Program-made: the position numbers and the translations under genes
Part shown: positions 1,386 through 59,046 of the stretch, in pieces
How positions within the stretch are numbered: the first letter of the stretch is position 1
Layout of the letters: the number at the start of each line of letters is the position of its first letter
The notes under the pieces: generated by a model
Database searches by the model: none
Told to the model about the DNA's origin: nothing
Seen by the model: only the letters and a program-made list of their open reading frames with translations
Source: Nannobrachium achirus
Taxonomy: Eukaryota > Chordata > Actinopteri > Myctophiformes > Myctophidae
Assembly (NCBI GenBank): GCA_963921795.1
Contig: OY997649.1
Span: forward strand, 29,515,866-29,579,865
Direction of reading: 5' to 3'
DNA: 64,000 nt

Positions 1386-1541
1386 TCATTGTTGGGGAGA
1401 AACCTCATATCTCCAAGTTTCAAATTTGTATGTTTCTTTCGTAAAGTAAAGCCCTGCTTCATCATACAAGACTGTTACACAAAACTAGTGAAAATATCAG
1501 ATCTACAAGCACACAACGCCCGAGGTGTTTCCACCCGACAA
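1386..1541 (-). mobile_element. deleted copy of GTCGGGTGG-type MITE
   Basis: It matches the minus strand of the full copies at 57690-57930 and 58787-59046. Shared parts are the gaaacct-tat-ctccaagtttcaaat end, the aaagccctgcttcatcatacaag block, and the ACTAGTGAAAATA start of the internal palindrome (ATCAGATCTACAAGCACACAACGCC). The palindrome is cut at its centre and jumps directly to the opposite terminal repeat (TTTCCACCCGACAA). A deletion starting at the hairpin apex would explain this. Confidence 0.6.
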
Positions 1542-1620
1542 CAGCGCTATACTTGGTTATGACCAACTACCGGTATCTGAAAACCATTTGGTGGTCTAAA
1601 GTATGAATTAGCTCTTAGGA

Positions 1621-2350
1621 TGATGTTGGTTGCGACCGTAGGTCGCACTTACTACAGAAAGCTGCTCGAGGTGTCCGTCTGTCCGTCCGTCCGTCCGTCC
1701 GTCCGTCCGTCCGTCCGTCCGTCACACACGTCACACGTCACACTTTTGCCCTGCTCATATCTCTGCAACCGTTGCCCCGATCCATGCCAGATTTTGCACA
1801 CACACTCCTTACCTGCCAAACTACAACCTCCAAGGACCCCCGGAGCTCCAGGGACCCCCAGCTCCCTCGGGGACCCCCAAGTGTAAAAAATGAGCACATG
1901 TGCAAAAATTACCAAATGACCACCCCAACGGGGCTGCTCACGGGGCATTCCCGGGGACCACCCACTCCTGGTGCTCCAGAACGGATGCAAAAGTGGTGGC
2001 GCCCCCAGTGGAGGACCCCCTGCCACTGCAGCTCACATAAAATGCCGTAACTCGGGCTAGGAGCGACCGGGAGAGCCGGGGCCGGTACCTATTCGTCCGC
2101 CTTGGCGGCGCGGAGACCCCACCCCTCATTTCTCACATGGCCCTCTAGCGCCACCATGAGGCCGATTCAGATTTTGCCCTAAAATCACGAAAATCACTAC
2201 ACAGTATGTCTACACTCATGTCATCAACATGGATCAGGAAGATTTTGGAAAAACACATTTTTGCTCTATTTGTGGAGATAAGTGACCTACGGTCGCTTAT
2301 CTCCCGATTAGGGAGTCTTACTGGTATGGTAATATTGTCACGTAAAATGT
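1621..2350 (+). repeat. dispersed repeat with (TCCG)n tract
   Basis: It begins with GCGACCGTAGGTCGC, carries a (TCCG)n tetranucleotide tract at 1673-1722, and ends with CGGTCGCTTATCTCCCGAT and GGGAGTCTTACTGG. The end motif recurs at 53430-53475, and a related (TCCG)n-containing copy lies at 50255-50680. No protein is evident. The family is unnamed by me. Confidence 0.55.
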
Positions 2351-3699
2351 CAGTCATGGGAAAGGACATGAACTGCAAATATTTTTAATGTGATTGTCTA
2401 CATTTCTCCTATTTTCCTATCATTAACCAATACAAACTCAGCTCCAAACTAAAGCAAGTTAAAACAAAGTGAACAGTTAGTGAATGCTGTGGTAACAGTG
2501 GTCTCTTTGATGTCAACTACAAGTGTTTTACTTGCCAAAGCAAAGACCAACCATGAAATGTTTATAACATGGAATTAAAGCCTATTTCTTCTTTGTTTGA
2601 CAATGTAGCACGGCTGACAAATTATCTTCTCTCCCAGCATAATCCAAAACAAATGACAATGCAGTTATGAGCGGCAGTGAAAAGAGGGGCAATTGGTTCG
2701 CCTTAATACAGTTCCCCAGTACTGAAAACATATGCATTCCAGCCTCACTGACCTGTGAACAGTAGCAAGGTCAAACCCTATCTATATTCATAGACAGAGT
2801 TACAGTAACGTTCCATCTGCCACATTCTTTTCCCTCCACGGTAAAGCGCAAGGCTCTGGTGGGGTGCTAACCTAGTCCAGCAGTGGCACACAGTGGGTGC
2901 AGTAACAGAGGTCTTTACTGGGCACAGATATGGTGTGCAGAGATTCTGATAATCTCTTAAAATTGAATTTATATTGTAGTATTTCATTATGGACAGCATT
3001 AGTTGAGGGGAAATGCATTTGGGAGTGAAGGATGGTCAATGATAATGCTCACATTATGTTAAGATGGTATTAAGATCTGCCTGTTCAGCAGGGCGTGAAA
3101 CAGTGGAAAATAGAGTGCTCCTCTGCATGACAAGAAGTGGCTGGTGACGTACACCATGTGTATCGGAGGAGACGTGGTTTTCTACACCCCAAGACCAAAT
3201 CACATAAAATTAAAACAACATTGTTTTGATTTGAACCAATAAGTATAGGCCTATACAGTAAGTCACACATACAATGTATCACAGACAACAAGGCTATGTC
3301 CCCACATAAAATAAAATAACTAAAAGAATCTCAACCTTCCACACTTTCCTCTTCAAATACATGAAGTGGAAAACTGTATGTCACAGACAGCCCATCCATA
3401 AAACCAGAATTTGCAAGCAATCCAGCCAACTATGTTTAACTAGTTTACACTCTGCCTGCGCCAAATTCTATCTATGTTTGTCCATTGTTTATAGCTACAC
3501 TGATTTCTTTCAAATTATGGAGCTGACATTTCATATTTTCTCTGCCCAGTCCTCGTGAGTGCTTCATCCTCTTTCGCAGACGGGCTAAGCAAGCAGGGTG
3601 GGGAAGGATAGGTGCACTCATTTTTTACATGTCACAGAGAACATTCACTTGGTTACAGTAGCCTATATATGTAGGCTTACATCATTAACAGCCACAGTG
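2351..3699. other. no gene seen
   Basis: AT-rich DNA without recognisable coding exons or clear repeat ends. Short frames here lack domain motifs. Confidence 0.5.
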
Positions 3700-4215
3700 A
3701 CAGTGATAGTTGAATTGTGCGCTTTGCTATAAATTAGTGTTCCTGTCACAGTCCTGTCACTGAAAGCTTTGCTGCACCTTAGTGACTTGTACTGAGTTCG
3801 CTTGTCAAGACAGTGAAGCGTCATGTGTTGATATTGAGCCTCACACCCTTTATAGGCCTACTCTAATAATTAACTATTACTTGTCAAGGTCCACTCTTGT
3901 GACTTTTGGTCTTCAGTAGTTTTGGACTTTGAGTTTTGGACTTTAGGCTTTGCTGTATCAGTATGCTCTTTAAGTCTTGTATTCTGTTACACTGTGACTT
4001 TTGATTTGGTGTCTTATTTTGTAGTATTGTTTCCTGTCTGCCCCTGTAGTTGTTTCCCGCCTTGTCTCACCTCCACTTGATTAGTTGTGTTCTCCTCCTG
4101 TGTCCTGTTGTGCACCAGCCAATCCCAGTGTTGATTGTATGTTTGAGTTCACCTGTGTCTAGTTAGTTCTGTGTATTTATACTCCCCTGTGTGTTCAGTC
4201 CCTTGTTTAATAGAT
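3700..4215 (+). repeat. possible LTR-like fragment
   Basis: The stretch is T-rich with repeated CCTGT/GTGTCC motifs. It ends in a TATA-like TATTTATACTCCCC followed by GTGTTCAGTCCCTTG, the kind of core promoter seen in fish LTRs. I found no partner copy in the window and no clear TG...CA boundaries, so it could equally be another retroposon 5' region. Confidence 0.3.
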
Positions 4216-4830
4216 GTGAAAAGGAGGGAAAGGGGCGAAGTAGATTTGGTCAGTGTTTTATAACTACTTTGAGAGAAAGTACAGTGACTGTGTGTGTACA
4301 GATCTACACGGATGGATCAGGAGATCCAGAGACAGGACGGACAGGGGCAGCCTTTGTTGCTCCTGGGAATAATTACCCGTAATTGTTGGACTATAAGCCG
4401 CACCTGACTATAAGCCGCACCAGCCAAATTTAGAATTTTTTTTTTTTTACATATATAAGCCGCACCTGACTATAAGCCGCAGGTGTCCTTCCTGCTTCCC
4501 GCTAGAGCGCCCCTGGTGGCTGTTCGCTGTATAAATCTATATATAAATCCTTGTTAAAGACCATTGTAAAACAAACTAACTGGCTGTTAGCAGAGATGGG
4601 CGAAAATACATTGAAAAGTATTTTGATACAAAATACAAATACTGGGTCAAAAAATGTATCAAAATACAAAATATAAATACAGGCCAGAGAAATGTATTTA
4701 AGATTCAAATACGTATTTTGTATTTTGAAAATACATAAATACTTTTTATAAAAATGTATGTAATGATTAGTAATTTTATAGATTGACTGCCAAATATTAA
4801 ATTAATTGCCCGTCCGAATTTCGAAGAATA

Positions 4831-57689: not shown

Positions 57690-57930
57690 AACGTCGTTGT
57701 TGGGTGGAAACCTTGTATGTCCAAAGCGCATTTTGTATTTATCATTTGAAAAATGAACTAAACTAGTGAAAACAGCCGATCTACAAGCACACAACGCCTC
57801 GCACCGCAAGGCGTTGTGTGCTTGTAGATCTGCTGTTTTCACTACTTTTGTGCGACGGCCTTGTACGATGAAGCAGGTCTTTTGCTTTGAAACTTGGAGA
57901 TGACGAGGTTTCTGCCCGACAGTGACGATA
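57690..57930. mobile_element. GTCGGGTGG-type MITE, full copy with palindrome
   Basis: The left ACGTCGTTGTTGGGTGGAAA and the right TTTCTGCCCGACAGTGACGA are inverted, with TA outside both ends. It shares AACCTTGTATGTCCAAA and GCGACGGCCTTGTA with the copies at 55664 and 58787. The palindrome is at 57764-57844. Confidence 0.78.
57764..57844. repeat. recurrent palindrome copy, 81 bp
   Basis: TAGTGAAAACAGCCGATCTA ... TAGATCTGCTGTTTTCACTA, with inner CAAGCACACAACGCCTCGC and AAGGCGTTGTGTGCTTG. Both arms carry AACAGC/GCTGTT and GCACAC/GTGTGC, the variant form typical of this MITE family. Confidence 0.93.
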
Positions 57931-58235
57931 ACCTGCTTGCAAAAAAAAAGGTCCCCGGTTCAATTTTAAAGAGAAGCTGATAACATAAAAAGAGGTTCTT
58001 CTGTCCATAGTAATAATACGTTACAATACAAGACACAATACAGGACAATACAGTTTGGGACCATTGTTACTATACAATCGAGACGAGCAGGTCATCACCA
58101 TGTCGACATTTTTGTTAGACGGGTCGGATATACTGTATAAAATGAGTAATATTAGCAGAAATACATAGGCCTAGCCCTAACTGTATATTTACAAAGAGTT
58201 TTTCATTGTACAAAGAACCAATGAGCCAGAAATAT

Positions 58236-58292
58236 TCTCTCTCTCTCTCTCTCTCTCTCTCTCTCTCTCTCTCTCTCTCTCTCTCTCTCTCT
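58236..58292. repeat. (CT)n microsatellite
   Basis: About 28 CT dinucleotides. Confidence 0.97.
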
Positions 58293-58786
58293 GTAATAGG
58301 TACTGGGAGATGTGGCAAGCCAGAGTGGCAAGCCAGCCACTATATACTGGATGAATACTGCAGGCATCAATGTAACATGGTCCAAGTCTATTCCGCGTTG
58401 TGATTTCAAGAAGGTATCTTAGCAGTACAGGCTGTGCTTTCATCACACATTACATTATTTTTGTATTTTATTTTTTGCCATGGACAAGGATAGGTCTTGC
58501 AGCGGAGACACTGAAAGATAACCAGAGAAAAAGAAAGTGACAGTGAAACAGTACAGCAAGAGAAAAAGAGAGACCCAGAGACAGAAAGACAAAGCGGAAA
58601 GGAAGAGGAATTGAGTGATGCAGGTGAGAGAGTTGGGGAGAGTTGGGGAGGAGGCTCCCATTAGCGCTCATTAATATGCTCCGCACTGCAGAGAGCCCTT
58701 TCTCTGCCAACAGTGGGTCACACTGGACTGATCCAAAGAGCAGTGGAGACAAGCAGGCCAGATGGTGAGCCCTGGAGATGGATATC

Positions 58787-59046
58787 GTCTTTGTCGGGTG
58801 AAAACCTTGTATGTCCAAAATCATTTGTTTTGCGTTTATCATTTTAAAAATGATTTAAACTAGTGAAAACAGCCGATCTACAAGCACACAACGCCTCGCA
58901 CCGTGAGGCGTTATGTGCTTGTATATCTGCTGTTTTCACTACTTTCGTGCGACGGCCTTGTATGATGAAGCAGGGCTTTACTTTGCGAAAGAACAGACAT
59001 ATTTGAAACTTGGAGATACAAGGTTTCCACCCGACAATGACGATAT
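58787..59046. mobile_element. GTCGGGTGG-type MITE, best-preserved copy
   Basis: The left TCGTCTTTGTCGGGTGAAAA and the right TTTCCACCCGACAATGACGA are inverted with TA outside each, and CCTTGTAT/ATACAAGG continues the pairing. The palindrome is at 58860-58940 with the same AACAGC and GCACAC variants as 57764. No transposase. Confidence 0.8.
58860..58940. repeat. recurrent palindrome copy, 81 bp
   Basis: TAGTGAAAACAGCCGATCTA ... TATATCTGCTGTTTTCACTA with inner CGCCTCGCACCGTGAGGCG. It differs from 57764 at a few single-arm positions (TATATC, GTTATGTG), i.e. early decay of symmetry. Confidence 0.93.

Follow-up and report, generated by a model that had tools for sequence, protein, structure and literature searches.

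Why should the two arms of a dispersed palindrome carry the same departures from one copy to the next? The question is raised by a 64,000-nucleotide stretch of the genome of the myctophid fish Nannobrachium achirus (assembly GCA_963921795.1, contig OY997649.1, positions 29,515,866 to 29,579,865), hereafter the window. A first-pass annotation of its letters had noted a short palindrome at about 18 places, with arms that seemed to change together, and had offered three accounts of this: conversion or template switching between the arms, selection for the stem, or the spread of variants that were symmetrical already. Our analysis of the window and of the whole assembly showed that the co-variation is for the most part inherited: founders were symmetrical, and their copies then decayed in the ordinary way. 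In addition, template switching or conversion between arms is indicated by mismatches that have become homogenised and by loops that have become inverted; the evidence for it is good, though indirect. We give a probability of about 0.7 to the account that joins the two, namely arm-to-arm template switching behind the homogenised mismatches and inverted loops, plus the spread of symmetrical founders.

The palindrome and the repeats that carry it

Allowing up to three mismatches, a 20-base arm core had 17 matches in the window compared to 0.02 expected from shuffles, with none of 100 shuffles reaching 17. Seven loci (9081, 32936, 35062, 43559, 54863, 57757 and 58857) are two-armed palindromes with an intact centre, featuring arms of 34–46 nt that are 86–98% complementary and separated by a gap of 3–15 nt. 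The recurrent palindrome with matched arms is thus real. All seven fold far better than their dinucleotide shuffles (z-scores of −8.1 to −16.8, with 0 of 200 folding as well), and the paired variants that the first-pass annotation had listed (CCTCC/GGAGG, CAAAACGCATCG/CGATGCGTTTTG, AGAAGATC/GATCTTCT, and AACAGC/GCTGTT with GCACAC/GTGTGC) are present as it described them. Its roster of about 18 places holds for these seven; the palindrome at 52825 lacks its centre, that at 9398 is damaged, and the remaining places are a single arm or an outer-arm remnant, with four weak ones (13583, 47203, 55078 and 56796) giving no match to a 26-base arm at up to eight mismatches. The copies in the window are the following:

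57757..57851, plus strand: family A two-armed palindrome with loop ACC and mismatch C/A
58857..58945, plus strand: family A two-armed palindrome with three one-sided changes in the right-arm core
57688..57930, plus strand: family A repeat copy bearing the palindrome, with inverted ends around GTCGGGTGGAAACCTTGTAT
58782..59045, plus strand: family A repeat copy bearing the palindrome
55668..55893, plus strand: family A repeat copy with a single arm remaining (55754–55779, minus strand)
1383..1520, minus strand: truncated family A repeat copy with one arm (1494–1519)
43559..43649, plus strand: palindrome G, two-armed, with 44-nt arms that are 98% complementary and both have A for C at site 20, and with mismatch A/C
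35062..35136, plus strand: family F two-armed palindrome (CCTCC/GGAGG) with mismatch C/A
32936..33018, plus strand: family D two-armed palindrome, both arms of which have T for A at site 14, with mismatch A/C and three one-sided right-arm changes
54863..54945, plus strand: family B two-armed palindrome with GAAG in both arms, against GCAG or GCCG in other copies
9081..9153, plus strand: family C two-armed palindrome (CACAGCGCGGCAC)
52825..52881, plus strand: family B palindrome with its centre lost
9402..9444, plus strand: family C palindrome with a damaged centre (the 9398 of the first-pass annotation)
7553..7578, minus strand: family B, one arm
6970..6995, plus strand: family B, outer part of a single arm
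44084..44109, plus strand: family B, one arm with its inner end lost
40701..40726, plus strand: context E, one arm

The palindrome is imperfect and about 75–95 bp long, with arms of up to about 40 bp that read approximately TAGTGAAAATAGC(A or C)GATCTACAAGCTCACAACGCnnCGC and a loop of 3 nt. Copies whose two arms disagree at the bracketed site, one having A and the other C, thereby acquire an orientation and are present in contexts A, B, D, F, G, H and I; they form the majority in A (17 of 24) and are fewer than the A/A copies in D and B. Within the window, A is set against C at one common arm site in five of the seven intact loci, the exceptions being 9081 and 54863.

The palindrome sits inside dispersed repeats, each with its own flanks: A (with TTGTCGGGTGGAAACC ends), B, C, D, F, H and I, while G is a single context. 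The representatives of the eight contexts that we compared have no common sequence outside the palindrome, save short matches between B and G (the one shown is 21 bp). The family A consensus ends in matching inverted repeats, TCGTCGTTGTCGGGTGGAAACCTTGTAT and ATACAAGGTTTCTGCCCGACAGTGACGAT, and the B and D copies have the ends CAGGGGTCTTCAAC and CAGTGGTTCTCAAAC, which look hAT-like by eye. No open reading frame of at least 150 aa overlaps the copies of the host repeats in the window, and the 20,888 family-A-type cores in the genome provide the high copy number that marks a miniature inverted-repeat transposable element (MITE). TTAA target sites and CC[C/T]T termini are absent from the ends and flanks of family A, the family examined for them. 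Several contexts are MITE-like, and the palindrome appears to be an internal core of several non-autonomous transposon families of this type. What is unusual is its copy number and the presence of one palindromic core common to different repeat families.

In assigning loci to families, L001:1494 and L046 were taken out of family B. In the comparison of contexts, D is represented by 32943 of the window, since the flanks of L008:1494, a D locus by eye, did not match those of the window's D copy. At L002 (1462–1592), the palindrome has grown outward by about 32 bp, as an inverted copy of the family B left flank, and the usual right flank was not found there. At L003 (1459–1629), there is a 43-bp tandem array of 4.1 copies with a unit consisting of fused palindrome arms, as if a satellite were beginning.

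Across the genome (1,658,514,493 bases in 564 contigs), the 20-base core has 453,401 matches at up to two mismatches (227,411 + 225,990; control 1 + 0), which amounts to about one arm per 3.7 kb. As an unselected sample we took twenty 10-kb stretches, chosen without regard to the palindrome: 51 arms in 195,856 bases compare to 53.5 expected from the genome count, and 15 of the 20 stretches contain arms. With a 28-base arm and up to seven mismatches, the same stretches yielded 87 arms, and a shuffle of the stretches and the window none. A two-armed inner core around the 13-base centre, with sites 17 and 22 left free, occurs at 46,981 loci in the genome; in the window and L001–L028 we counted 45 two-armed and 36 one-armed loci. 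The families were sampled mainly within the initial 13 Mb of a single contig (C1), which supplied 60 of the 63 distinct loci listed among the two-armed-core matches and 40 more from other listings; the identical local duplicates L031, L032 and L071 were dropped before counting.

No tRNA and no Rfam match at gathering thresholds was found in the window, and the presence of a tRNA or a member of a curated RNA family there was rejected on that ground. Degenerate 22–23-base core patterns have no exact match in viral contigs or in bacterial or archaeal genomes, no relative of the family A copy at 57688–57930 was found in plasmids, and three stretches of the core's letters have no match in the texts of the literature searched.

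Co-variation and one-sided decay of the arms

In 26 two-armed loci from the window and the twenty stretches, compared over 41 sites, the mean left–right distance within a locus is 6.69 as against 11.39 between loci, a value reached by none of 20,000 permutations. For the seven loci of the window alone, the figures are 5.57 and 11.86 (5 of 20,000 permutations). This is as the first-pass annotation had predicted. Arms of different families among the 26 loci are 12.96 apart, compared to 5.88 for same-family arms of different loci. When a locus's own two arms are set against those of other loci in its family, the distances are 4.42 and 3.61 in A, 6.48 and 5.15 in C, 3.63 and 3.41 in D, and 5.78 and 6.12 in B; within a family, the arm-to-arm association is gone.

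Summed over families A–D, there are 291 one-sided deviations compared to 11 identical two-sided ones (7.6 expected); by family, the respective counts are 138 and 2 in A, 28 and 7 in B, 66 and 2 in C, and 59 and 0 in D. Among the intact palindromes of the window, the right arm of 58860 has three one-sided differences within the core and that of 32936 likewise has three. Since the deviations within families are mostly one-sided, most of the co-variation reflects symmetrical founders that spread and then decayed. The first-pass annotation had named precisely this pattern, symmetrical families decaying normally, as what would speak against its interpretation. It accounts for most of the co-variation, with arm copying still indicated by the homogenised mismatches and inverted loops. 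Four family A loci with a flank score below 100 (L036, L040, L064 and L090) were excluded from this count and from the tree discussed below; one of them, L040, shows an identical C-to-G change on either side, which counts in favour of arm copying.

Homogenised mismatches, inverted loops and their explanation

A useful marker is the mismatch, counted here in exact family A 59-mers. The C/A mismatch is found in 3,635 copies with loop ACC and in 2,078 with loop GGT, and the homogenised states A/A and C/C in 315 and 1,089 copies, respectively, whereas the control state G/A with loop ACC, in which the base is a non-matching one, numbers just 5. Of the 24 family A loci sampled, 17 have the canonical mismatch, 5 are matched, 1 is flipped and 1 is in another state; the corresponding figures at site 9 of family C are 11, 8, 1 (L014:7267) and 1 (n = 21). 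Pooling the mismatch sites over families, including B and D, gave 27 matched, 35 canonical, 5 flipped and 5 other among 72 loci, a mixture of loci selected for an intact inner core and unselected ones. The pooled p of 4 × 10−9 presumes independent loci and an A/C founder everywhere, which is unwarranted for B and D, and we do not rely on it. At the sister loci L095 (A/A) and L097 (C/C), homogenisation went in opposite directions. At site 17, the genome has 20,888 A/A loci compared to 317 T/A, with T/T lying outside these counts; the one-sided noise state C/T numbers 155, placing T/A within a factor of about two of it.

The loop provides a second marker. It stands in the rarer orientation (GGT) in 2,078 of 5,713 otherwise perfect family A copies, and its inversion leaves the spacer length constant. 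On a tree built from the flanks only (54 family A loci, with label tests on 33 of them; L118–L128, 11 of 59 loci that had been chosen through an exact core match, did not enter these tests), loop orientation requires 9 changes as against 10.9 when shuffled (p = 0.16), while the middle base of the loop requires 4 as against 8.3, with 0 of 1,000 shuffles doing as well. Moreover, loci with nearly identical DNA outside the transposon (acatgagttatattt) have loops ACC, ATC and GGT; of the three GGT loci at this site, L118 and L119 were chosen for their loop and L081 was not. Twelve family A copies (L054, L067, L076, L077, L081, L101, L118, L119, L123, L124, L126 and L127) have nearly the same external DNA, so that the element and its target seem to have been amplified inside a larger repeat. 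A proposal that family C is free of loop inversions, and that a long perfect stem is therefore needed, was dropped on account of L009:8766 (TTG), a candidate inversion.

A process that could yield these observations is as follows. While replicating through the hairpin, the polymerase would occasionally leave one arm for the other and then return; such a switch would re-copy part of one arm from the other and could invert the loop. Over long times, founder copies may thereby be made symmetrical, and a founder that amplifies would spread its own symmetrical variant, with its copies then mutating independently in the two arms.

Pure inheritance, in which a few ancestral symmetrical palindromes were amplified and decayed with no arm copying since, agrees with the co-variation lying between families (5.88 within the same family, 12.96 between different ones), with the one-sidedness of changes within families and with the clustering of homogenised states on the tree. 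We nevertheless consider it unlikely, given the excess of A/A and C/C over the non-matching base, the unclustered loop orientation, the differing orientations at one shared insertion site and the opposite states of the sister loci; it also leaves the origin of the symmetrical founders unaccounted for. Reciprocal recombination between arms by cruciform resolution, inverting the interior without copying, fits the loop inversions and the 4 of 59 family A loci with A/C instead of C/A; yet it cannot yield A/A and C/C, which are both present, and its standing as an explanation is accordingly poor. Selection for the stem, with compensatory mutations preserving it as an RNA hairpin or as a DNA structure on which transposition depends, would suit the near-perfect hairpins at the seven window loci and the retention of the mismatch in many copies, which looks as though it were tolerated or required. 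Of the three accounts of the first-pass annotation it is the one that gained no support, and we hold it to be improbable: selection on pairing is not expected to invert loops, and the one-sided decay, the many one-armed copies and the lack of an Rfam match in the window also tell against it.

Two further ideas concern how the palindrome came to lie in so many repeats. It might be a mobile hairpin inserted separately in each host repeat, which would be compatible with arm copying and in keeping with eight contexts that have nothing else in common beyond the short B–G matches. This we find doubtful, as the outer arms vary by family and are still symmetrical, which direct target duplications would not produce, and no empty site was seen in the sequence examined; of the joined-flank matches, the two at L011 were aligned to family F. 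These L011 copies were rejected as empty sites, for outer-arm sequence remains in them and they are deletions. The second idea, which we advance tentatively and think unlikely to be right, is that the palindrome is a transferable core in unrelated transposon families: switching promoted by the hairpin would let it be captured and would symmetrise new hosts, as at L002, and the A/C mismatch would have been kept since fully perfect copies found new families less readily. If true, the genome would be an exceptionally large natural record of hairpin copying.

Several observations weigh against the combination of template switching and founder spread that we favour. The state C/T with loop ACC reaches 270, far above the G/A control; this may stem from CpG decay of C/C. 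The controls are thus not all clean. The founder may already have been A/A in D (where 10 of 18 loci are A/A) and in B (4 of 9 loci). Homogenised states cluster on the tree (5 changes between canonical and other as against 11.3 shuffled), so that some of the 315 and 1,089 copies inherited their state and the tally of independent events is uncertain; the GGT loops may likewise be partly an inherited subfamily. The flank tree itself is weakly resolved, with 7 of 51 inner branches starred and 30 open. A/C copies persist in seven of the eight contexts, though frequent arm copying should erase them, and family C has at most 2 inverted loops among 21 (L009:8766 and L014:7267, the latter weakly oriented). 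Identical two-sided changes (11) are hardly above chance (7.6), and at least 4 of the 7 in family B resemble small alignment shifts (two at L055 and two of three at L075); switching is therefore not frequent per copy. The candidate target-site duplication, measured in family A, is a 4-bp AT-rich repeat; at the most favourable of many offsets it is seen in 17 of 30 loci, many of which lie at a single common site. Finally, except for those in the window, in L001–L008 and in the twenty stretches, the family loci all come from the first 13 Mb of C1, towards one end of that contig.

Known systems and other features of the window

Angel, the palindromic teleost MITE of Izsvak et al. from 1999, reportedly consists of imperfect palindromes that kept their inverted-repeat structure despite large divergence, for which a hairpin amplification model is said to have been proposed. 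Going by description only, Angel is a palindromic fish element, whereas the palindrome considered here is the internal core of larger elements.

The first-pass annotation knew of no named family with such behaviour, which holds only in part: there are published counterparts both for arm homogenisation with spacer inversion and for an internal core common to several MITE families. In the parts of the literature compared, template switching at short inverted repeats makes the two arms alike and turns the spacer around, recurrently and reversibly (PMC8604942), with 9 of 10 spacer inversions in a yeast study occurring in inverted repeats whose arms were already perfect (PMC8604942), and template switching can create and maintain stems (PMC8794818); PMC3820800 is related work on template switching and quasi-palindrome correction. 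As homogenised arms with inverted spacers are thus in print as a signature of template switching, the process at hand would be a known one in an extremely abundant substrate. The published cases, as far as those parts extend, concern yeast genes and RNA genes, in contrast to one repeated palindrome with about 450,000 arms that records both inherited and apparently recurrent events.

As for the families with a common core, the sections compared on the CMITE elements of corals describe small families with differing terminal repeats, a highly conserved internal region of unknown origin and tandem arrays, together with an estimated ~1,600 copies, TTAA target sites and piggyBac-type ends (PMC2872659). 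The likeness lies in an internal region common to families with different ends and in the tandem arrays (compare L003); the difference is that those sections describe neither the core as a palindrome nor co-variation of arms. In Atlantic cod, the part of the account compared reports gadMor-hAT-1784, a hAT-derived palindromic MITE with tandem insertion at chromosome inversion breakpoints (PMC12368964), which resembles the present elements, by description only, as a hAT-related fish MITE with internal inverted repeats.

Since the mismatch and the three-base loop can serve as markers in some 450,000 arms, one could measure from an assembly how often, in which direction and over what tract lengths the arms are copied. 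The system offers a concrete answer to how stems might acquire matching changes without selection, and raises the question of why different small transposons have one internal hairpin in common.

The window has a eukaryotic, fish-like character in its CpG observed/expected ratio of 0.56, its hAT-like repeat ends and an extended minus-strand open reading frame (18900–23477) that looks by eye like a Gypsy-type polyprotein. Repeats around CCCATATATGGAGATA at 14203–18427 give rise to lengthy reading frames that are probably spurious. A separate long inverted repeat lies at 4980–5381, with 159-nt arms that are 88% complementary and 84 nt apart.

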